In this document: positions 2,736-18,123 of the stretch, in pieces
Layout: every line of letters starts with the position of its first letter
How positions within the stretch are numbered: position 1 is the stretch's first letter
Source of the DNA: Promethearchaeota archaeon
Lineage (GTDB): Archaea; Asgardarchaeota; Lokiarchaeia; Sigyniarchaeales; SOKP01
DNA length: 43,412 nucleotides
Direction: 5' to 3'
Assembly: GCA_019894715.1 (NCBI GenBank)
Contig: JAGXOA010000199.1
Coordinates: 1-43,412, forward strand
Made by a program: the position numbers and the translations under genes
Notes under the pieces: model-generated
Told to the model about the DNA's origin: nothing
Seen by the model: the letters and a program-made list of their open reading frames with translations, nothing else
Databases searched by the model: none

Positions 2736-5567
2736 TTATGAATCTTCTCCTTGGCTTTTTAGCATTTCACTAAGGATTTTTTTCCTTTCTTTTGAATTAA
2801 GATATATTAGCTCATCAATAAATTGATTTTTATCATTAATAGGTAAATCTAATTGAGCTATTCTTTTTAATTCTTTAGGGCTTAAAGAAGAAACATGATA
2901 ATCTTGAATAGGAGTAAATTCTAATAATTCATCCGAATTAATGAAATTATTTAACATTTGATTATCAGTCTTAAAATTAAAATTACTTGGTGATTTTCCT
3001 AAAGCATCAGGAATATTCTTTTTCCTATTAACAAAGAAAAGTAATGTAGTACTACTAATAATAATAGAAATATACATTAAACTAATAGGAGATAAAAGAT
3101 TCTTAATTAATGAATCAAATAAATTAAATATAGGATCTGGTTTTTTATCCTCAATAATTGGATGAAAATCTCGATTTTTCACAACATCATTTATGTCAGT
3201 TATCTCATATGGTTTTATTCCATCTCCAGTATAATCGTTCCAATAATTGCCTATTGTTGTATAATTCCATTTATTATTTTCTCCATTATCTTCTGCATTT
3301 TTGGTAATACTATAGAAAAAATTGTCATAAAATAAATTATCTCGTGAATTCTCCTGTAAAATAACTCCAATTAAATTATAAAAGAAAATATTACTAATAA
3401 AACTTGAATTACTGCAATTTTCCACATAGATACCAAAGCTACTACCCTTAATATAATTAGAACTAATATTAATATCAAGACTATTCAAACCCAAAAAAAT
3501 AGAAAAATGAATATTATCTGAAATTATGTTATGATAAATCTCAATTTCCATTGAATCCAGAATTATAATTCCGTCTATTATGTTTTTATTAATAAAGTTA
3601 TTATTTATATTCACATTATTACAACTACTCAGATTAAGCCCACTTAGAGCATTTTGGTTTATGTTATTATTTTGAATATTAAAATAAGCAGAATTAATTA
3701 TTTTAATTCCATTTTGATTATTATCTTTAATTGTGTTATTGATTATATCACTGTTAAAACCGTATCCATTAAAATTTATCCCTTGAATTGAATTATGAGA
3801 GATAGTATTATTTAATATTTCTATATCTGTACTAAGTTCTAAATATATTCCATTAATTTCATTATTTTGAATAATATTACTTTCAATAGAAAGATTATAA
3901 CATCTTTCTCCATATAATCCATTACCATTGTTATAGGATATGTTATTATTAACAATATTACAATTATTAGTTTCATATAAATAGAAGCTACCAATCATGT
4001 TATTGACAAAATTATTATTTCTCAGAATTATATTTAACGAATAAAAGATCATTACACTGTAAGAGGAGTTGATTATATTAAGATTTGAAATTATTGAATC
4101 ACTACAATTAATGAGTATTATTTGTCCTGGAGAGCCATAAGTTGTAAAATCAGCAGTATTTAAATTTGAAGAATTAGAATAATAATAAATGGGTTTACTA
4201 TTCACTGTATTTGAATAATCAATATTATAGGACATAAGACTTGATGATGGAGCATCTTTATTTAAAAATATTCCGCACAATTTAAATTTATTATTATTAA
4301 TTATATGATTTTCTCCATTTCCAGTTAAATACATTCCTACTTCACATCTATCTATAATATTGTTTGAATAAGTACCATTATCTGCATTTTCATCTATAGA
4401 AAGTCCATATTTACATAAATTTATTGTATTGTTAAATAAAGTAGAATTATATCCATTATCTCTTATACCAATGGAATTAGAATTAATCACACTATTATTC
4501 CTTACTAAACTATCACTATTCCTCTCATGGATTACAATTCCATCATTCTCAATGTTATTGCATCTATTATCAATAATTTTATTATTAATAGAGTCTGTGA
4601 TAACTTTATCTTCTATTTCATAATGATTTAAAAATATACCATCTATAGTACAATTGTAAATATCGTTATTTTTAATAATATTGTTATAACCACCAATATT
4701 AATACCATATTCCCCATTAATTATGTTATTTTTAAAGATATAAGAATATCTTGTATTACCAATTATTCCACTATTAATTGTTCCATCATTATTATTAATC
4801 GTATTATTAATCACATCAATATCATTACTCCAATCTAATATTATCTCATGATATTCATTGGAATTAACAATATTATCTTCAATTGTGCAGTTATTACTAT
4901 AATATAATTCTATTCCACCATTCAAGTTAGAATTAACTTTATTTTCTTCAATTATGCTATTATTACTATTATGAAGTGAAATACCATATCTTAAATTTCG
5001 ATTAGCCTTATTCTGTTTTATTGTACAGTTTTCACTATTTTTTAAAATAATTCCTACTCCACCATTTTCAGAGCAGTTATTATTTTCTAATGTTCCATTA
5101 CTTACATTTTCTAAAATAATTCCCCCTACATAATCAGTATGATCTGAATAAAACCTTGATCCATAAAGAGTGCAATTTCTGATAATAAAAGATTTATCGG
5201 AATTCATTATATGGATTGGAGTTTTTTCCCAATCTCCATCTATAGTGATATTTTCAATTATATATGGAACATCCCATGTACCTGAACCATTACACCAATC
5301 CTGGTTTACGGCCCATGTCCAATTATGCGCTCCTACACCAGTAGCATTCCCATTAATAAAGATAGGTGACGAGGAAAGATCCCAATAATCTGAATTTTTC
5401 AAAAATCCATTATGATTATTACTTGAATCTCTCCTAGAATAGTTTTCTGATATAGAAAATCCTGAATTTAAAAAAAGGTTTAAAATTATCCCTAAAATGA
5501 GTATTAAAAATAGGACAAATGGATATTTTTTGAATCTTTTTCCTGAGTCTAGCTTTGGGGTTCTCAT
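2736..5567 (-). CDS. Membrane-anchored NosD-like right-handed beta-helix surface protein
   Basis: 943 residues starting MRTPKLDSGKRFKK. A hydrophobic signal or anchor segment spans residues about 15-34, then the chain is built almost entirely of roughly 22-25-residue parallel beta-helix turns with the N-N-x-I and N-S-N-x-x-x-I-x-x-N patterns typical of NosD/CASH and pectate-lyase-like folds. A second membrane helix (SLMYISIIISSTTLLFFV, about 828-848) is followed by a basic stop-transfer RKK and a soluble tail of about 90 residues with charged helices. It is probably displayed outside the cell with a cytoplasmic tail. Copper binding as in true NosD is not supported. The shared upstream motif lies 131 bp before the start. 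It follows the regulator gene in the same direction. Confidence 0.8.
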   Translation of the reverse strand: MRTPKLDSGKRFKKYPFVLFLILILGIILNLFLNSGFSISENYSRRDSSNNHNGFLKNSDYWDLSSSPIFINGNATGVGAHNWTWAVNQDWCNGSGTWDVPYIIENITIDGDWEKTPIHIMNSDKSFIIRNCTLYGSRFYSDHTDYVGGIILENVSNGTLENNNCSENGGVGIILKNSENCTIKQNKANRNLRYGISLHNSNNSIIEENKVNSNLNGGIELYYSNNCTIEDNIVNSNEYHEIILDWSNDIDVINNTINNNDGTINSGIIGNTRYSYIFKNNIINGEYGINIGGYNNIIKNNDIYNCTIDGIFLNHYEIEDKVITDSINNKIIDNRCNNIENDGIVIHERNSDSLVRNNSVINSNSIGIRDNGYNSTLFNNTINLCKYGLSIDENADNGTYSNNIIDRCEVGMYLTGNGENHIINNNKFKLCGIFLNKDAPSSSLMSYNIDYSNTVNSKPIYYYSNSSNLNTADFTTYGSPGQIILINCSDSIISNLNIINSSYSVMIFYSLNIILRNNNFVNNMIGSFYLYETNNCNIVNNNISYNNGNGLYGERCYNLSIESNIIQNNEINGIYLELSTDIEILNNTISHNSIQGINFNGYGFNSDIINNTIKDNNQNGIKIINSAYFNIQNNNINQNALSGLNLSSCNNVNINNNFINKNIIDGIIILDSMEIEIYHNIISDNIHFSIFLGLNSLDINISSNYIKGSSFGIYVENCSNSSFISNIFFYNLIGVILQENSRDNLFYDNFFYSITKNAEDNGENNKWNYTTIGNYWNDYTGDGIKPYEITDINDVVKNRDFHPIIEDKKPDPIFNLFDSLIKNLLSPISLMYISIIISSTTLLFFVNRKKNIPDALGKSPSNFNFKTDNQMLNNFINSDELLEFTPIQDYHVSSLSPKELKRIAQLDLPINDKNQFIDELIYLNSKERKKILSEMLKSQGEDS

Positions 5568-5697
5568 TTTATATTTCTCTCTTATTTTCTCTAATTTTCT
5601 TTATTTAATCCTTTTTTCAACCCATTTAATATAAGAATCTTTTTTTAATAAATATGTTTTAAATATAAATAAAGTTATACTGATATAAGAAACGAAT

Positions 5698-5717
5698 TGG
5701 ACAAAAAGTGAAATTTT
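5698..5717 (-). promoter_or_regulatory. Shared upstream motif, copy a (NosD-like gene)
   Basis: The minus strand reads TTTCACTTTTTGTCC within a 20-bp identical block, 131 bp upstream of the beta-helix gene. The same block precedes the regulator gene and both cohesin-repeat genes. It is too far upstream to be the TATA box and is better seen as an operator or upstream activating site. Confidence 0.6.
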
Positions 5718-5782
5718 CATAATTCCACATCTTCCAAAAAGTTTTGATTTATATTTCTGATACTTCATTTTTTCAAAAGTTA

Positions 5783-6460
5783 TTATTTAATTTTATTTCT
5801 TCTAAATATGATTTCATTATATACATCATAATTTATTACATATTTTCTTTTTTCATTAGTTAATTCCACAATTTTAGTATCTATTAATATCTCTAAATAT
5901 TTCTTTACTGTGATATAATGCATACAAAGTAATTTAGAAAGATCTAAAGGACTTAAAGGATGCTTATTTTCCTTAAATGCATTCAATATAGATTTCACTT
6001 TTTCATTCGCAATATAATAAAAAATCTTATAATATTTGGATTCTGATTCAAATGAAAATATAACTTTATGTTTTTCTATCCTTATAGTTTTTACAAATTC
6101 AAATTTAATTAAAAAATTCAAATGCCAAATTACTTGATTAGCTCCTATATGGAATGCTTTTCGTAGATTATAAATGGTTGAACCAGGATTATTTAAAATA
6201 TATTCATATATTTGGCGTCTTAAACGATTGGCTAATATGTTATCTTTAACAAGTTTCGAGCCAATTATGATTAATCTTTTTTTAATTAAATCTTTAATAA
6301 TCCTTAGAATTTTTGCTTTAGTAAAATTTTGATTACCTTTTAATTGATAATTTAAAAAATGAGCTAGTTCCATGATTTTAGAAATTGGCTTTTTGTGTGT
6401 ATATTTTCTTATTAAATTATATATTATCTCCTCATCATTTTTTGAATAAACCACACTCAT
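5783..6460 (-). CDS. Double winged-helix transcriptional regulator
   Basis: 225 residues with no membrane segment. At least two winged-helix units can be seen: residues about 75-135 (L-R-R-Q-I-Y-E-Y-I ... N-Q-V-I-W-H-L-N-F-L, then a beta-wing K-H-K-V-I-F-S-F) and about 150-215 (S-I-L-N-A-F ... S-P-L-D-L-S-K-L-L ... T-V-K-K-Y-L-E-I-L). An N-terminal helical segment (about 1-60) may be a third. The layout fits archaeal ArsR/MarR-type tandem winged-helix regulators. It sits between the beta-helix gene and the cohesin-repeat genes, and its own upstream region (154 bp before the start) carries the same 20-bp motif, so it is the best candidate for the protein that binds it and may regulate itself. 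Ligand unknown. Confidence 0.7.
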   Translation of the reverse strand: MSVVYSKNDEEIIYNLIRKYTHKKPISKIMELAHFLNYQLKGNQNFTKAKILRIIKDLIKKRLIIIGSKLVKDNILANRLRRQIYEYILNNPGSTIYNLRKAFHIGANQVIWHLNFLIKFEFVKTIRIEKHKVIFSFESESKYYKIFYYIANEKVKSILNAFKENKHPLSPLDLSKLLCMHYITVKKYLEILIDTKIVELTNEKRKYVINYDVYNEIIFRRNKIK

Positions 6461-6613
6461 TTTATAATCTCAGATAATTAAGAGTTAGAAGAATTGAATA
6501 TAACTAAAAATCATATTTTTTATAATATTCCTGATTTTTAAAAAAACTACTTTTTTTCTTGGTTTTATTATATGATTTAAAAAATAAATTATTTTTTAAT
6601 TTAAAAAGGCATA

Positions 6614-6633
6614 TGGACAAAAAGTGAAATTTT
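6614..6633 (-). promoter_or_regulatory. Shared upstream motif, copy b (regulator gene)
   Basis: An identical 20-bp block (minus-strand core TTTCACTTTTTGTCC) 154 bp upstream of the winged-helix regulator and just beyond the 3' end of the GH5 gene. The surrounding ~120 bp is duplicated at 11507-11624. Confidence 0.6.
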
Positions 6634-6724
6634 GAACGTCTAAACCAATATTAGATGATTAGTATTCTAAATTATTACAGATTATATATGAAAAAATAAT
6701 TAAAATTTAAAAAAAAAAAAATTA

Positions 6725-9700
6725 TTATTGTTGTTGTCTTCTTTTCCTTAGATATATCATAGCAAGGACAGTAATCCAAAAACTTACTAGAAATATAAAT
6801 AAATCATATCCAGGAATTACTCCGTCTTGATGTACTGCATCATCTACTATAACATAAACAGAATCAGTTGCATTGTTTCCACTTCCATCATTAACGGTAC
6901 AGGTATATTGATAAATACCTACTGATAAACCATCAATACTAACTGTTATTGAATCTCCAGAACTCCAAGAACCACTTGTAACTATCGTACCATTTTGAGT
7001 TATAGTATAGGTTGTAGGATTGTCATCTGTTGCTATCCAGGTAATAGAATTTCCAGTTTCACCTGCTTTATAGTAAACATCTGTTGGAGAATTAAGTTCT
7101 GGAACTTGTGTAGGTGCTTCTTCAACATCTACACTACCATCAATAGCGTTAGGAGTACCTATTGTGTTTGTATCCATATCTACTAATAATTCAATGGATA
7201 AATCTAATGAACTGTAACCTATGCCAACTGCGGTCCAGGTAATAGTTAATAAGTGGAGTTGTGAGCTTGGGCCTGTACCCATTACATTGAATCCAACTAT
7301 CGTAACATATGTTTCAAAAATATTTACTTCAGAAACAAATCCTTCACTACCAGCCACTATATCATTAATACTTGCTATTTGAATAACGGATTCATCGTAA
7401 GTAATATTAAAGCTATAATAATATAAATTATGACTACCTGTATCGACATAGATTTCAGTCTCAAAAGTGTCACCAACGGTTTGGGTTGATACTGAACTGA
7501 ACCATACATCTCCACCAGTAACAGGACCAACAGTTACAGTAACGGAGTCTGAATCAGATAATCCATCTCCATCATTGACAGTACAAGTATAGATATAAGA
7601 CCCTTCTGATAGACCATCAACACTCACAGTGATTCCAACACCAGAACTCCAAAAATCAGAAGCTACTTGAGTACCATTTTGAGTTATAGTATAGGTTGTT
7701 GGATTGTCATCTATCGCTATCCAGGTGATAGCATTTCCAGTCTCACCAAATTGATAGAAAACATCTGATGAAGAAATACAAACTGGAGCTTTTACAGGAC
7801 CTGCTTCTACAACTACACTACCATCAATATCAAAAGAATTACCTATTGTGATTATATAATTATCTGTTAAATCTATAATAGATAAATCTAATGAACTGTA
7901 ACCTACGCCAATTGCGGTCCAGGTAATGGTTAATACGTGGAGTTGAGAATTTGGGCCTGTACCCATTGGTTCGAATCCACATATCTTGACCAATCCATTA
8001 GCATTATCAAGATTGACTGCATTAATAAACCCTTCACTACCAGCCACTATATCATTAGCACTTGCTATTTGAATAATATCTTTATTGTAAGTAATATCAA
8101 AGCCATAGCAACCTAATTTCTGACTACCTGTATTAATATAGATCTCAGTCTCAAAAGTGTCACCAACGGTTTGGGTTGATACTGAGCTGAACCATACATT
8201 TCCAACAGTAACAGGAACGACTCTTACTCTAACGGAATCGGAATTAGATAATCCATCTCCATTATAAACGGTACAGGTATAGGTATGATAACCATCTGAT
8301 AGATCATCAACACTAACTGTTATTGAATCTCCAGAACTATAAGAACCAGAGGCTACTTGAATTCCATCTTGAGTAACTGTATAGGTTGTAGAATTATCAC
8401 CTGTAGCAATCCAAGTAATTGAATGTCCTGTAGTATCTTCTTGATAGTAAACATTTAAAGGAGAATTAAGAATTGGAGCTATTTCAGGAACTTCTTCTAT
8501 AATTGCCTTACCATAAACTCCTTTGGGAGTACCTACATTATTTAAATCTGTATCTACTAACTTCCTAACGATTATTCTTAAAGGACAGCTACCTGCACCA
8601 ACTGCGGTCCAGGTAATTGTTAATAAGTGGAGTTGAGAGCTCGGGCCTGTACCCATTTCATTGAATCCAGCTATCGTAACATATGTTTCAAAAATATTTA
8701 CTTCAGAAACAAATCCTTCACTACCAGCCACTATATCATTATTACTTGCTATTTGAATAGGTACTGTTCCCGTTTGAGGATTATGGTTTAGAATTATTAA
8801 TTCATAAGCACCTAAATTCTGACTACCTGTATTGACATAGATTTCAGTCTCAAAAGTGTCACCAACGGTTTGGGTTGATACTGAGCTGATCCATACATTT
8901 CCAGCAGCAACAGGAACGACATATACAGTAATGAGATATGACATAGACATTCCATCTTCATCATTAACGGTACAGGTATATCTATAAGTACCTTCTGATA
9001 GACCATCAACACTCAAGGTGATTTCAACACCAGAACTCCATGAATCAGAAGCTACTTGAGTTCCATCTCGAGTAACTGTATAGGATGTAGGATTGTCATC
9101 TATCGCTATCCAGGAAATTGAATGTCCTGTGGTACCTTCTTGATAGTAAACATTTGGTGATCCAATAAGTATTGGAGTTATTACAGGAGCTTTGTCTACA
9201 ACTACACTACCATCAATATCGTTAGGAATATCTATTGTGTTTCTATCTGTATCTAATAAAGTGTCAATGGTTAAATCTAATGGACTAATACCTTCGCCGA
9301 CTGCGGTCCAGGTAATTGTTAATAAGTGGATTTGAGAGCTTGGGCCTATACCCCATTTATCGAATCCAACTATTGTAACCAATCCATTAACATTATCAAT
9401 ATTGACTTCAGAAACAAATCCTTCACTAATAGGCTCTATATCTTCATCACTTGCTATTTGAATAACATCTTCATTGTAAGTAATATCAAATTCATAATTA
9501 CCTAAATTCTGACTACCAGTATCGACATAGATTTCAGTCTCAAAAGTATCTCCAACGGTTTTTTCGTGTACTGAGCTGAACCATACATCTCCACCACTAA
9601 CAGGAACAACAGTTAGAGTAAGAGATTTTGAATCAGATATTCCATCTCCATCATTAACGGTACAGGTATAGTTATAAGATCCTTCTGATAGACCATCAAC

Positions 9701-11290
9701 ATTTATTGTGATTGGATTACCAGAACCCCAAAAACCAGAATCTACTTGAGTACCATCTTGAGTTATAGTATAGGTCGTTGGATTTTCATCTATCACTATC
9801 CAAGTAATGGAATTTCCTGTACTATCGACATCTATCGAAATATCCTCTGTAGGCCTTATTATTGGTGCGGGTTCTAATTCATCTAGCCAATCTTTAACAA
9901 AATATCCAAAATAGTTATCATATGTATCTGGTTCTGTATCAAACCCATCTCTAAATTGCTTATCTTCAACATTCGGTATAGTATTAATATAGATACATTG
10001 ATTATCATGATATCTAGTAGTACTGTCACTAACACCATTTCCTAATAAATTCCACTCACAGTCAAACATGTGTGAATGATAAATATAATCAAAACACCAA
10101 GCAATCCATCCAATATTAGGCCATCCTTGAAAAAATTCCTTAAATTCATATCCCCAAAAAGAATTACCCCTAGTAGGATTAGGACCTTCTGCTTCATATC
10201 CCCATTCTGTTACTACTACAGGACGGAATCGAGCAGTATAACTAGACATATTTGTAACACCATGAGCAGGATAGAGATGTAATACATAAGCTATGTTACC
10301 ACCTGTAAAAAATAGACTTTCATCATAAGGTTCAGTGTCCCACAAAATATTCCCTGAATGTGGTAAAATTTGATTATAATGAGGACCACCTACTAGAATT
10401 ATATTATTAGCTTTACCTGTTGTGTTATACTTTAATCGACAAATATCTCGATCCGAAACAGTAGGTTTTCGTACATCATTGACTTGATCTATAAGTGGTT
10501 GATATTGACTCCAATTACCACTTCGGATTGCATCAATCATTCCTTGAGCATAAGGCATCCAGGAAAGCCAGTCTCCGCCTCCATGAGGTTCATTCCATAG
10601 TTCAAAAAGTACAGCGGAATTATTTGCATATTTACCACACATATAGTTCCAAAATTCGACAGTTTCTGCTAGACACAATGGATCATTATATCCCCAACCC
10701 CACATACCATGCCAGTCAAGAATAACATAATATCCCTTGGAAACACAATATTGAACAGCAGGATCAATAATTAAATTAAAATAATCATTATGAGACATTT
10801 TGAAAAAACGTGTACTCGGAAATATTTCACTATTATAATCTAATACCCAACCATGCGGACCTGTTTCATCATCAACCCATGGATGCATTGGTAATCTAAT
10901 TGTATTTACCTTAAAACCATACACATCAAGAAAATCTATTATATCTTCAAATGAAGTTGGTCTTGCATGACTTCTATGACCTTCATAAATTGCTTGAAGT
11001 TCAGTAACAGATACTCCTCTTAATTGGACTTCATTACCCAAAGCATCAGTAATCCACTTTCCTCGTACTTCTAGACTAGGTATATTATGTGTTTTGGAAT
11101 TAAGTACCATAGAGTCTGATGATATGGGATTGGCCCTCACAAGGCCTGGTGTACTAGAGCTAAGTGTTATAGAATCTGGTGTTTTAGAAATAGAAGGCTC
11201 TGATGTTGATAAATTAATATTCATTGTTAAAAAAAATCCCATCAATGTTATGATTAATATTAGAACAGTTGTAATTTTTCGATGTTTCAT
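6725..11290 (-). CDS. GH5 cellulase with cohesin-like and Ig-like repeats, surface-anchored
   Basis: 1521 residues. A signal peptide covers about 1-30 (basic KHRK, then a hydrophobic run). Residues about 70-430 are a glycoside hydrolase family 5 domain: RGVS (91-94), DWH (192-194), the acid/base in WNEP (Glu234), HLY (338-340) and the nucleophile in TEWG (Glu362), as in endo-beta-1,4-glucanases. Then follow alternating Ig/cadherin-like modules (five, each with S-I-T-W-I-A ... Y-T-C-T-V-N-D-G-D-G) and cohesin-like modules (four, each beginning V-W-F-S-S-V and containing V-G-D-T-F-E-T-E-I-Y-V). The C-terminus is IPGYD, a membrane helix and RKRRQQQ, a sorting or anchor signal. A likely extracellular polysaccharide hydrolase. 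A GAGG ribosome-binding site lies about 10 nt before the ATG. No dockerin module was seen in the window. Confidence 0.85.
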   Translation of the reverse strand: MKHRKITTVLILIITLMGFFLTMNINLSTSEPSISKTPDSITLSSSTPGLVRANPISSDSMVLNSKTHNIPSLEVRGKWITDALGNEVQLRGVSVTELQAIYEGHRSHARPTSFEDIIDFLDVYGFKVNTIRLPMHPWVDDETGPHGWVLDYNSEIFPSTRFFKMSHNDYFNLIIDPAVQYCVSKGYYVILDWHGMWGWGYNDPLCLAETVEFWNYMCGKYANNSAVLFELWNEPHGGGDWLSWMPYAQGMIDAIRSGNWSQYQPLIDQVNDVRKPTVSDRDICRLKYNTTGKANNIILVGGPHYNQILPHSGNILWDTEPYDESLFFTGGNIAYVLHLYPAHGVTNMSSYTARFRPVVVTEWGYEAEGPNPTRGNSFWGYEFKEFFQGWPNIGWIAWCFDYIYHSHMFDCEWNLLGNGVSDSTTRYHDNQCIYINTIPNVEDKQFRDGFDTEPDTYDNYFGYFVKDWLDELEPAPIIRPTEDISIDVDSTGNSITWIVIDENPTTYTITQDGTQVDSGFWGSGNPITINVDGLSEGSYNYTCTVNDGDGISDSKSLTLTVVPVSGGDVWFSSVHEKTVGDTFETEIYVDTGSQNLGNYEFDITYNEDVIQIASDEDIEPISEGFVSEVNIDNVNGLVTIVGFDKWGIGPSSQIHLLTITWTAVGEGISPLDLTIDTLLDTDRNTIDIPNDIDGSVVVDKAPVITPILIGSPNVYYQEGTTGHSISWIAIDDNPTSYTVTRDGTQVASDSWSSGVEITLSVDGLSEGTYRYTCTVNDEDGMSMSYLITVYVVPVAAGNVWISSVSTQTVGDTFETEIYVNTGSQNLGAYELIILNHNPQTGTVPIQIASNNDIVAGSEGFVSEVNIFETYVTIAGFNEMGTGPSSQLHLLTITWTAVGAGSCPLRIIVRKLVDTDLNNVGTPKGVYGKAIIEEVPEIAPILNSPLNVYYQEDTTGHSITWIATGDNSTTYTVTQDGIQVASGSYSSGDSITVSVDDLSDGYHTYTCTVYNGDGLSNSDSVRVRVVPVTVGNVWFSSVSTQTVGDTFETEIYINTGSQKLGCYGFDITYNKDIIQIASANDIVAGSEGFINAVNLDNANGLVKICGFEPMGTGPNSQLHVLTITWTAIGVGYSSLDLSIIDLTDNYIITIGNSFDIDGSVVVEAGPVKAPVCISSSDVFYQFGETGNAITWIAIDDNPTTYTITQNGTQVASDFWSSGVGITVSVDGLSEGSYIYTCTVNDGDGLSDSDSVTVTVGPVTGGDVWFSSVSTQTVGDTFETEIYVDTGSHNLYYYSFNITYDESVIQIASINDIVAGSEGFVSEVNIFETYVTIVGFNVMGTGPSSQLHLLTITWTAVGIGYSSLDLSIELLVDMDTNTIGTPNAIDGSVDVEEAPTQVPELNSPTDVYYKAGETGNSITWIATDDNPTTYTITQNGTIVTSGSWSSGDSITVSIDGLSVGIYQYTCTVNDGSGNNATDSVYVIVDDAVHQDGVIPGYDLFIFLVSFWITVLAMIYLRKRRQQQ

Positions 11291-11386
11291 TTTTAAAAAT
11301 TCCTCTAATTTTTTTGTATTTTTATTCTATTTTTTTTTGTATAATTATTTAATAAATGCGAAGAGAATATTTTTAATAAAGGTATA

Positions 11387-11406
11387 TGGACAAAAAGTGA
11401 AATTTT
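11387..11406 (-). promoter_or_regulatory. Shared upstream motif, copy c (GH5 gene)
   Basis: An identical 20-bp block 97 bp upstream of the GH5 gene start, preceded on the minus strand by the same flank as copy e. Between it and the ATG lies an A/T-rich TATA-like stretch (TTTATTAAAAATATT) shared with the paralogue. Confidence 0.65.
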
Positions 11407-11506
11407 GACAGAAAAAAAAAGATATAATAATGAGAAATCATTAGATTTTGGATTAGGTTATAATAGACAACGCTTTAATCATTGTAAACTCATTATAAAA
11501 AGGGAG

Positions 11507-11526
11507 TTTAACAAAAAATGAAATTT
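11507..11526 (-). promoter_or_regulatory. Degenerate copy d of the shared motif in a duplicated flank
   Basis: A diverged version of the block (GG to AA and GTG to ATG changes). The surrounding 11507-11624 is closely similar to 6614-6724, the sequence behind the GH5 gene. It is therefore the duplicated 3' flank of the paralogous gene and no longer lies in front of a regulator gene, which may explain its decay. The rest of the 11291-11624 gap holds only the GH5 promoter region and A/T-rich sequence. Confidence 0.55.
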
Positions 11527-11624
11527 TGAAAGTCTATACCAATATTAGATGATTATTATTCTAAACTATTACAGATTAAATGCGAAAAAATAATTAAAAA
11601 TTTTAATGTTAAAAAAAAAAAAAA

Positions 11625-14600
11625 TTATTGTTGTTGTCTTCTTTTCCTTAGATATATCATAGCAAGGACAGTAATCCAAAAACTTACTAGAAATATAAAT
11701 AAATCATATCCCGGAATTACTCCGTCTTGATGTACTACATCATCTACTATAACATAAACAGAATCAGTTGCATTGTTTCCACTTCCATCATTAACGGTAC
11801 AGGTAAATTGATAATTATCTACTGATAAACCATCAACACTAACTGTTATTGAATCTCCAGAACTCCAAGAACCACTCGCAACTATCGTACCATTTCGAGT
11901 TATAATATAGGTTGTAGGATTGTCATCTGTTGCTATCCAAGTAATAGAAACTCCAGTTTCACCTGCTTTATAGTAAACATCTGGTGGAGAATTAAGTTCT
12001 GGAACTTGTGTAGGTGCTTCTTCAACATCTACACTACCATCAATAGCGTTAGGAGTACCTATTGTGTTTGTATCCATATCTACTAAATCTTCAATTAAAT
12101 CTTCAATGGATAAATCTAATGAACTGTTACCTACGCCAACTGCGGTCCAGGTAATAGTTAATAAGTGAAGTTGTGAGCTTGGGCCTGTACTCATTGCTTC
12201 GAATCCACCTATCCTAACTATTCCATTAGCATTATTAAGATTGACCATAGAAACAAATCCTTCAGCACCAGCTGCTATATCATTAATACATGCTATTTGA
12301 ATAACGGATTCATTGTAAGTAATATTAAATGAATAGCAACATAAATTCTGACTACCTGTATCGACATAGATTTCAGTCTCAAAAGTGTCACCAACAGTTT
12401 GGGTTGATACTGAACTGAACCATACATCTCCACCAGTAACAGGACCAACAGTTACAGTAACGGAGTCTGAATCAGATAATCCATCTCCATCATTGACAGT
12501 ACAAGTATAGATATAAGAACCTTCTGATAGACCATCAACACTCACAGTGATTCCAACACCAGAACTCCATGAATCAGAAGCTACTTGAGTACCATCTCGA
12601 GTAACTGTATAGATTGTAGGAATGTCATCTGTTCCTATCCAGGTAATAGAATTTCTAGTTTCACCTGGTTGATAGAAAACATCTGATGGAGAATTAAGAA
12701 CTGGAGCTTTTGCAGGACCTCCTTCTACAACTACATTACCTTCAAGATCATAAGGAGTACCTATTGTGTTTGTATCTGTATCTACTAAATCATTAATGGA
12801 TAAATGTAATGAACTTCTACCTGCACCAACTGCGGTCCAGGTAATGGTTAATATGTGGAGTTGAGTGCTTGGGCCTGTACCCATTGGTTCGAATCCAGCT
12901 ATCATAACCATTCCATTAGCATTATCAATATTGACTATAGAAACAAATCCTTCAACACCAGCTGCTATATCATTATCACTTGCTATTTGAATAACGGACT
13001 CATCGTAAGCAATAACAAATCCATAAGCCCCTAACCTCTGACTACCTGTATTGACATAGATCTCAGTCCCAAAAGTATCACCAACGATTTGAGTTGATAC
13101 TGAGCTGAACCATACATTTCCACCCGTAGCAGGAACGACTTTTACCATAACGAAGTTTGAATCAGATAATCCATCTCCATCATTAATGGTACAGGTATAT
13201 TGATAAATACCTACTGATAAACCATCAACACTAACTGTTATTGAATCTCCAGAACTCCAAGAACCACTTGCAACTATCGTACCATTTTGAGTTATAATAT
13301 AGGTTGTAGGATTGTCATCTGTCGCTATCCAAATAATTGAATGTCCTGTAGTACCTTCTTGATAGTCAAAAGCTAATGGATAACTAAGAACTGGAGCTTG
13401 TGTAGGTGCTATTTCTACAACTACACTCTCATCGATAGCGTTAGGAGTACCTATTGTGTTTGTATGCATATCTACTAAATCATAAATGGTTAAATCTAAT
13501 GAACTGTTACCTGCACCAACTGCGGCCCAGGTAATGGTTAATAAGTGGAGTTGAGTGCTTGGGCCTGTACCCATTGGTTCGAATCCAGCTATCATAACCA
13601 TTCCATTAGTATTATCAATATTGAACATAGAAACAAATCCTTCAGCACCAGCTGCTATATCATTATCACTTGCTATTTGAATAACGGACTCATCGTAAGT
13701 AATATTAAATCCATAAGCGGCTATATTCTGACTACCTGTATTGACATAGATCTCAGTCTCAAAAGTGTCACCAACGGTTTGAGTTGATACTGAGCTGAAC
13801 CATACATTTCCAACATCAGCATGAACGACTTTTACCATAACGAAGTTTGAATCAGATAATCCATCTCCATCATTAACGGTACAGGTATATTGATAAATAC
13901 CTACTGATAAACCATCAACACTAACTGTTATTGAATCTTCAGAACGATAAGAACCAGAGGCTACTTGAGTTACATTTTGAGTATCTGGATAGGTTATTCG
14001 AGTAACTGTATAGGTTGTAGGATTGTCATCTGTCGCTATCCAAATAATTGAATGTCCCGTAGTACCTTCTTCATAGTAAAAAGCTAATGGATAACTAAGA
14101 ACTGGAGCTTGTGCAGAACCTCCTTCTACAACTACACTACCTTCAATAGCGTTAGGAGTACCTATATCGGTGTAACTTATATCTGATAAAGTGTCAATGG
14201 TTAAATCTAATGAACTGTTACCTGCACCAACTGCGGTCCAGATAATTGTTAATAAGTGAAGTTGAGAGCTTGGGCCTATACCCATTGCATCGATTCCAAC
14301 TAATGTAACCAACCCATTAGCATTATCAATATTGATTGTAGAAACAAATCCTTCAGCACCAGCCACTATATCATTAGCACTTGCTATTTGAATAATGGAT
14401 TCATTGTAAGCAATTTTAAATGCATAAAGAGTTATAGTCTGCATACCTGTATCGACATAGATCTCAGTCTCAAAAGTATTTCCAACAGTTTGGGTTGGTA
14501 CTGAGCTGAACCATACATCTCCACTTCCAGATAATTTAAGTGTTTTAGAAATAGAAGCCTCTGGTGTTGATAAATTAATATTCATTGTTAAGAAGAACCC

Positions 14601-14651
14601 CATAAATACTGTGCATAATATTAGAATAGTCGTAATTTTTCGATGTTTCAT
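11625..14651 (-). CDS. Cohesin-like/Ig-like repeat surface protein (scaffoldin-like paralogue)
   Basis: 1008 residues with the same signal peptide (MKHRKITT...) and the same C-terminal IPGYD-helix-RKRRQQQ anchor as the GH5 protein, but no catalytic domain. After the signal peptide come four cohesin-like modules (V-W-F-S-S-V ... V-G-D-T-F-E-T-E-I-Y-V ... hydrophobic strands ... L-H-L-L-T-I-T-W-T-A-V-G) alternating with four Ig-like modules. Repeats are very similar at DNA level within and between the two genes, which points to recent tandem duplication and exchange. The role is inferred as an extracellular scaffold or adhesin; cohesins bind dockerins, but no dockerin partner is seen here. The 5' region (GAGG site, TATA-like stretch, 20-bp motif) is nearly the same as that of the GH5 gene. 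Confidence 0.8.
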   Translation of the reverse strand: MKHRKITTILILCTVFMGFFLTMNINLSTPEASISKTLKLSGSGDVWFSSVPTQTVGNTFETEIYVDTGMQTITLYAFKIAYNESIIQIASANDIVAGAEGFVSTINIDNANGLVTLVGIDAMGIGPSSQLHLLTIIWTAVGAGNSSLDLTIDTLSDISYTDIGTPNAIEGSVVVEGGSAQAPVLSYPLAFYYEEGTTGHSIIWIATDDNPTTYTVTRITYPDTQNVTQVASGSYRSEDSITVSVDGLSVGIYQYTCTVNDGDGLSDSNFVMVKVVHADVGNVWFSSVSTQTVGDTFETEIYVNTGSQNIAAYGFNITYDESVIQIASDNDIAAGAEGFVSMFNIDNTNGMVMIAGFEPMGTGPSTQLHLLTITWAAVGAGNSSLDLTIYDLVDMHTNTIGTPNAIDESVVVEIAPTQAPVLSYPLAFDYQEGTTGHSIIWIATDDNPTTYIITQNGTIVASGSWSSGDSITVSVDGLSVGIYQYTCTINDGDGLSDSNFVMVKVVPATGGNVWFSSVSTQIVGDTFGTEIYVNTGSQRLGAYGFVIAYDESVIQIASDNDIAAGVEGFVSIVNIDNANGMVMIAGFEPMGTGPSTQLHILTITWTAVGAGRSSLHLSINDLVDTDTNTIGTPYDLEGNVVVEGGPAKAPVLNSPSDVFYQPGETRNSITWIGTDDIPTIYTVTRDGTQVASDSWSSGVGITVSVDGLSEGSYIYTCTVNDGDGLSDSDSVTVTVGPVTGGDVWFSSVSTQTVGDTFETEIYVDTGSQNLCCYSFNITYNESVIQIACINDIAAGAEGFVSMVNLNNANGIVRIGGFEAMSTGPSSQLHLLTITWTAVGVGNSSLDLSIEDLIEDLVDMDTNTIGTPNAIDGSVDVEEAPTQVPELNSPPDVYYKAGETGVSITWIATDDNPTTYIITRNGTIVASGSWSSGDSITVSVDGLSVDNYQFTCTVNDGSGNNATDSVYVIVDDVVHQDGVIPGYDLFIFLVSFWITVLAMIYLRKRRQQQ

Positions 14652-14745
14652 TTTTCAAAATTCCTCTAATTTTCTTGTATTTTTATTCTTTTTTTTTGTA
14701 TAATAATTTAATAATTCTGAAGAGATGTCTTTTAATAAAGGTATA

Positions 14746-14764
14746 TGGACAAAAAGTGAAATTT
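14746..14764 (-). promoter_or_regulatory. Shared upstream motif, copy e (scaffoldin-like gene)
   Basis: The same block, 95 bp upstream of the paralogue's start codon, almost exactly the spacing seen for the GH5 gene (97 bp). Confidence 0.65.
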
Positions 14765-18026: not shown

Positions 18027-18123
18027 AGCCTCTGGGGGGAATTGAACCCCCGGCTGATTGATGTGGCGTCAATTCTTTTTATTGATTACGAATCAATCAC
18101 TCTACGTTCTGAGTTACAGAGGC
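18027..18123 (-). tRNA. tRNA-Thr(CGT) with canonical 37/38 intron
   Basis: Acceptor GCCTCTG (18123-18117) with CAGAGGC, D-stem ACTC/GAGT, anticodon stem ATTGA/TCAAT, loop TTCGTA-A with anticodon CGT, T-arm GGGGG-TTCAATT-CCCCC, discriminator T. A 24-nt insertion after position 37 (reads ATCAATAAAAAG... to GCCAC) is the classical archaeal intron site. It abuts the GTPase stop codon tail to tail. Confidence 0.9.

Follow-up and report, generated by a model that had tools for sequence, protein, structure and literature searches.

This locus raises the question of what a short block of identical sequence does in front of four genes, and which protein reads it. The genes lie in a 43,412-nucleotide stretch of a Lokiarchaeon genome (Promethearchaeota archaeon, assembly GCA_019894715.1, contig JAGXOA010000199.1, positions 1 to 43,412), here called the window. 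They encode a winged-helix regulator, a NosD-type beta-helix protein, a GH5-family enzyme and a scaffoldin-like protein, the last three being surface proteins. With a probability of roughly 0.8, the sequence evidence points to regulators with three winged helices that bind the site directly upstream of the TFB-recognition element (BRE) and TATA box, most likely as activators of the promoter, with the targets of each regulator set by the variable centre of the site. The sequences themselves show the motif, its constant geometry, its conservation across species, its link to one regulator clade and the joint absence of site and regulator. That the protein physically binds, that it activates instead of repressing, and that the 7-bp centre is a specificity code are the parts of this reading that we infer. 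The features concerned are as follows.

14733-14764, minus strand: control site and TATA-like box of the scaffoldin promoter, AAATTTCACTTTTTGTCCA then CCTTTATTA; exact copy, composite pattern match at 14733-14762, 35-bp block the same as in the GH5 promoter.
11625-14651, minus strand: scaffoldin-like surface protein of 1008 amino acids, with cohesin and Ig/PKD modules and a C-terminal PGY, transmembrane segment and RKR tail (Pfam Cohesin, 1.3e-20).
11496-11615, minus strand: duplicated upstream flank of the regulator, holding a decayed site (11509-11523) but followed by no regulator gene; 83% identical to 6602-6721.
11374-11405, minus strand: control site and TATA-like box of the GH5 promoter; exact copy, composite pattern, 35-bp block.
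6725-11290, minus strand: GH5-family surface enzyme of 1521 amino acids (Pfam Cellulase, 1.7e-21), with cohesin matches inside the gene and shared repeats.
6601-6632, minus strand: control site and TATA-like box of the regulator promoter (possible autoregulation); exact copy, composite pattern.
5783-6460, minus strand: regulator of 225 amino acids with three winged-helix domains (Pfam HTH_24; AlphaFold2 model), a member of the site-bearing clade.
5685-5716, minus strand: control site and TATA-like box of the beta-helix promoter; exact copy, composite pattern, kept in the sister species between the regulator ortholog and the beta-helix gene.
2736-5567, minus strand: NosD-type beta-helix surface protein of 943 amino acids (Pfam Beta_helix, 7.6e-50; NosD, 5.4e-46).

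A preliminary description of this DNA had claimed an identical motif of 20 bp in front of these genes. The identical block is indeed present, with a length of 19 bp (AAATTTCACTTTTTGTCCA, minus strand), at 5698-5716, 6614-6632, 11387-11405 and 14746-14764. Its exact 15-mer core occupies 5699-5713, 6615-6629, 11388-11402 and 14747-14761, again on the minus strand. The distances to the start codon agree exactly with those given earlier: 131 bp for the beta-helix gene, 154 bp for the regulator, 97 bp for the GH5 gene and 95 bp for the scaffoldin gene. The 19-bp block did not occur in 100 dinucleotide shuffles of the window, and no further exact copy of the 15-mer was found across the whole 3.36-Mb genome, where about 0.014 exact copies are expected. 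The only copy with one mismatch in the genome (C217:8877) is located within a coding frame reading as an arginyl-tRNA synthetase. On the basis of the shuffles and the genome-wide search, chance or A/T drift was rejected as the origin of the block. The genome-wide scan also bore out the restriction claimed earlier, as no scatter away from genes was seen and all four exact copies lie in the promoters of these four genes. The motif is thus limited to a few promoters, some of them beside a regulator gene, which is the pattern expected of a cognate regulator. An RNA element was ruled out, because a search of Rfam over the site regions found no family and the leaders form no stable fold (folding z of +2.4 and -0.1).

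Copies could also be identical merely through recent duplication together with their flanks, and the window does hold duplicated pairs. The scaffoldin and GH5 genes are duplication products, promoter, leader and 3' flank included, and the regulator copy and the decayed copy at 11509 lie at the opposite end of this duplication, in 120 nt that are 83% identical. The scaffoldin and GH5 promoters agree at every position of a 35-bp block that begins with the motif and closes with the TATA-like box, as against 34/76 positions upstream and 68/80 downstream of it; not one of the 12 changes from the block onward lies within the 35 bp (P ~0.01). The fifth copy, 11509-11523 (TTTCATTTTTTGTTA), is changed at 3 of 15 positions, and the earlier argument that it decayed in a duplicated flank with no regulator behind it holds. 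Because one duplication gave rise to both the scaffoldin and the GH5 promoter, the four copies amount to three independent contexts; the scaffoldin/GH5, regulator and beta-helix contexts have nothing in common beyond the site. Recent duplication is hardly credible as the explanation, since the block stayed unchanged while its flanks diverged and since another species retains the site although the flanks there have diverged.

A TATA-like box follows the site at a fixed spacing in 4/4 promoters (TCC, 7 nt, then TTTATTA, TTTTTAA or TTCTTAT), and the unit is therefore better written as TTTCA-N7-TCCA-N6-TATA (TTTCA-N7-TCCA-N6-TTTATA in the window). An information profile of 60 sites places TYCA in columns 1-4, TCCA in columns 12-15 and TTT in columns 22-24, with an ATAA-like stretch next and little beyond. 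The site is thus conserved and stands at a short, constant distance before the TATA box, as expected of an archaeal promoter-proximal operator. Genomes were searched with the composite pattern ATTTCA-N7-TCCA-N6-YTYWKWW, and the reversed pattern served as control. The genome of the window (G000, 3.36 Mb), a sister species of the same genus (G001) and the genome G013 gave 6, 9 and 4 matches, respectively, with the reversed pattern giving 0, 0 and 0. Most other genomes gave 0-1 matches, like the control, and some composite matches inside coding frames are background. Inside coding frames, too, are the matches with one mismatch at C217, C147 and C157 (G000/G001) and the relaxed-pattern matches at C220 and C95, all of which were discounted. 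Of the intergenic matches, some precede genes for large secreted proteins, among them surface proteins of the beta-helix and clostripain type at a distance of 49-99 bp, and others stand before a regulator-linked winged-helix gene or a conserved small open reading frame (ORF). This small ORF has ~60 codons and is preceded by the site at G000:C145:2919 (L094 2920) and G001:C42:13938 (L089 4940); in G001:C42, the site adjoins a truncated clade-B-type regulator ORF.

The sister species repeats much of the arrangement. In G001, two genes are preceded by the exact site, one of the scaffoldin type (C93, at 94 bp) and one for a beta-helix protein (C129). On C30, a site with one mismatch lies in the gap between the regulator ortholog (62-63% identical) and the beta-helix gene that goes with it; another lies right behind a regulator paralog (C41), and two further copies with one mismatch are both in coding frames. 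Five other G001 copies on C67/C68 read TTTCA/TTCCA-AAAATAA-TCCAAAATYCTTTATAAAGA, with another centre (L132 4005, 5796, 7550; L133 4735; L134 4870). The sites before the beta-helix genes, one of them beside the regulator ortholog, and before the scaffoldin gene argue for the joint control that had been suggested. Autoregulation had also been suggested, and a site does stand before the regulator in the window (6614-6632); upstream of the G001 ortholog, however, there is no site within 3 mismatches. In the other beta-helix-linked members of the family, the site is found only downstream. Autoregulation is thus a possible trait specific to the genome of the window and is not conserved. A more fitting picture is of several surface-protein regulons, this one among them, under a family of paralogous regulators.

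Which protein reads the site was approached from the regulator. The AlphaFold2 model (mean predicted local distance difference test score, pLDDT, 94.2) contains three winged-helix domains at ~7-75, 79-136 and 141-209. An ArsR/HTH_5-type identity was rejected, because the protein scores 20.6 bits against HTH_metalloreg, under the cut-off of 55, and the model has three domains rather than one. Foldseek returned only generic tandem winged-helix proteins (RPC34, SelB, ESCRT-II), with a template modelling (TM) score of ~0.25-0.3 on the query, and therefore no family was assigned. Homologs were picked by protein similarity alone and fell into two clades, and the composite was sought within 350 bp of each. 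It was present at 24/27 clade-A loci but at 0/22 full-length clade-B homologs, which came from those genomes or related ones. The three clade-A loci without it comprise one disrupted ORF, one locus at a contig end and one that is truncated. Fisher's test gives P ~2e-10 for 24/27 against 0/20, a value that counts orthologs as independent although they are not. On the tree, a branch with support of 100/100 sets the site-bearing regulators apart. Regulator and site are thus present or absent together, with one exception (G001:C42): the site-bearing regulators fall in one clade, and in the genus of the window the ubiquitin operon lacks both.

These data bear on two rivals. If the site were a strong core-promoter element in general use among Lokiarchaeia, independent of any specific regulator, its fixed distance to the TATA box would be explained. 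Nevertheless, the strict pattern has just 6 matches in a 3.36-Mb genome, and it is absent at the 22 full-length clade-B loci. The ubiquitin operon of the genus lacks it as well, although that operon must have a promoter; a generic element is accordingly very unlikely. The reader might instead be another protein, either a TFB variant or a small winged-helix protein beside several of the paralogs, to which the 225-residue family would be merely linked. Small winged-helix ORFs do lie between the regulator and the beta-helix gene at C41, C35, C207 and G012:C3. No such ORF is found at that place in the window, at G001:C30, at G012:C9 or at the ubiquitin loci, yet the site is present at all of them, and its presence or absence tracks the regulator clade. 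Another reader is for these reasons improbable, though less so than a generic element.

The centre of the site differs between paralogs. Behind them, the same frame carries GTTATAT (G000:C35), ATCATAT (G001:C207), AGGTTAG (G012:C3) or CTTTTAG (G001:C41). The centre of the window group is CTTTTTG in 6/7 sites from two species, and that of the ubiquitin loci is AAATCAT in most loci. A centre that is constant within a group and different between groups points to recognition by the particular regulator.

In the mechanism we propose, the block would be the operator of a compact archaeal promoter, in which an A-tract, TTTCA, seven variable bases, TCCA, 6-7 bp over the BRE region and the TATA box follow one another. 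The regulator is encoded between the copies, and as a single chain of three winged helices it would bind directly upstream of BRE/TATA. Once bound, it most likely helps to recruit TFB/TBP, in the manner of archaeal activators covered in PMC5512572, and the scaffoldin, the GH5 enzyme, the beta-helix protein and the regulator itself would be switched together. The halves TYCA and TCCA are 10-11 bp apart on one helix face and would therefore suit the tandem winged helices of one chain. Paralogous regulators may use the same frame with another 7-bp centre, and each would thereby acquire its own target set, consisting of other surface proteins or, in other Lokiarchaeia, of the ubiquitin-like operon.

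The same site and regulator could also act in repression, with the protein covering the BRE/TATA region and blocking TFB/TBP until a signal releases it. Many winged-helix regulators act as repressors, and the TCCA half, ~6 bp before the TATA-like box, may overlap BRE. Most of the site, however, is upstream of BRE/TATA, where archaeal activators usually sit, just upstream of BRE, while repressors are mostly placed on BRE/TATA or downstream (PMC5512572). Repression is thus possible, although doubtful. Some other observations, like this overlap, which would suit a repressor too, weigh against activation by a dedicated triple-winged-helix regulator. The effective number in the clade comparison is smaller than the counts, because many orthologs are included, and the beta-helix-linked members come down to 7 diverse loci. 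The truncated clade-B-type ORF in G001:C42 has a site 33 bp downstream, the small extra winged-helix proteins beside several paralogs could be the binders there, and the five same-frame sites on C67/C68 of G001 are without a clear regulator or a common kind of target. Furthermore, the search pattern has a short, A/T-rich TATA part.

In other genera of the family, homologs of the regulator adjoin genes for ubiquitin-like, E1-like (ThiF) and E2 (UQ_con) proteins. At these loci, the same frame occurs in the divergent gap as CTTCAAAATCATTCCAATGGGTTTTATAA, pointing to the ubiquitin-like gene, and in the gap behind the regulator as CTCCAATTTTATTCCAATGGAATTTATAT, pointing to a membrane ubiquitin-like gene. 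Dispersed ubiquitin-like genes without a nearby regulator also bear it. At least one site on the expected strand was found in 34/41 loci from named Candidatus Lokiarchaeota/Lokiarchaeia genomes, the shuffled rate being 0.0024 per locus. The site block at ubiquitin loci is 78-99% conserved in 5-bp bins, compared with 49-66% just upstream. The genus of the window lost or never had the ubiquitin-linked regulator, and its ubiquitin operon has no site. Lokiarchaeia loci with ubiquitin-like frame sites are L009-L025, L128, L137-L147 and L188-L228. From these arrangements, the family emerges as a candidate regulator of the Asgard ubiquitin-like system. A wider reading, for and against which we find the case evenly balanced, is that Lokiarchaeia hold an expanded triple-winged-helix family reading one frame (TYCA-N7-TCCA-N6-TATA) with the 7-bp centre as an address code, by which paralogs assign surface-protein genes and, in many species, ubiquitin-like conjugation genes to separate signals. 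If true, such a code would mean modular switching of the cell surface and the ubiquitin machinery in archaeal relatives of eukaryotes.

A promoter-proximal operator with a local regulator is of a known kind. EarA, the activator of the archaellum operon in Methanococcus maripaludis and Pyrococcus (PMC5512572, PMC10665913), is likewise a regulator of a surface structure with sites immediately upstream of the BRE/TATA of the operon it serves. EarA has four 6-bp sites at one operon, whereas here each promoter has one ~20-bp composite site, the targets are several and unlinked, and the regulators are a paralogous family with group-specific centres; the two are set side by side by description. Ptr2 of M. 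jannaschii and TFB-RF1 of P. furiosus, activators that recruit TBP or TFB, probably share the mode of an upstream site and recruitment of a basal factor, but they belong to other protein families, and recruitment is a proposal here. The ara-box of Sulfolobus is also a short conserved box directly upstream of BRE/TATA and common to co-regulated genes, although its sequence and lineage are different; its binder was unidentified in PMC5512572. Regulators of the ArsR/TrmB/Lrs14 type match the single winged-helix domains (Pfam HTH_24; PDB profile matches such as 5duk, 2p4w and 6cmv). In contrast to these, the present protein has three such domains per chain, and no solved structure fits it as a whole (best query TM ~0.3).

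A search of open-access papers, outside of which others may exist, found no report of the site or the regulator family. Within that literature, the triple-winged-helix family, the composite frame with group-specific centres and the Lokiarchaeia targets are new, and together they suggest an entire family of gene switches yet to be described. How Asgard archaea regulate their genes is little known and few of them are cultivable, and a Lokiarchaeon is a close archaeal relative of eukaryotes. Here the sequences yield predictions of the regulator family, its binding frame and its targets, and nature supplies both positive and negative controls. These predictions open a direct in vitro route to the control of Lokiarchaeon surface proteins, including a cellulosome-like scaffold, and the same frame in other species would give a first candidate regulator for the Asgard ubiquitin-like operon.

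The regulon had been taken to serve a polysaccharide-degrading surface system. The GH5 enzyme is built on the scaffoldin framework, with the same leader and C-terminal tail and with cohesin-like modules. Its gene (6725-11290) looks mosaic, a scaffoldin-type gene in which a GH5 domain was inserted between the shared leader and the cohesin/Ig modules. Cohesins occur in the window and on C50/C58, and 11 dockerin matches over the cut-off are found elsewhere in G000. A cohesin scaffoldin and dockerin partners are thus encoded in one genome, and together with the GH5 domain they make a cellulosome-like role plausible. The degradation system fits these domains, but none of the dockerin genes in the genome carries the exact site, and the proposal is only partly supported. 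The dockerin matches and further cohesins lie on contigs C252, C69, C160, C209, C58, C111, C217, C60 and C50. For Asgard archaea with cohesin and dockerin, the sole match among the open-access papers searched concerns anaerobic methanotrophic (ANME) archaea. The scaffoldin-like protein scores 15.5 bits against Loki-CTERM, under the cut-off of 19.9.

Outside the regulon, the window carries a tRNA-Leu gene at 217-298 (region 213-298). A partial tRNA-like repeat at 1-127, not called by ARAGORN, may be truncated where the contig ends or may contain an intron. A tRNA match of 97 nt from Rfam at 18027-18123 on the minus strand, also unreported by ARAGORN, is possibly an intron-containing tRNA.

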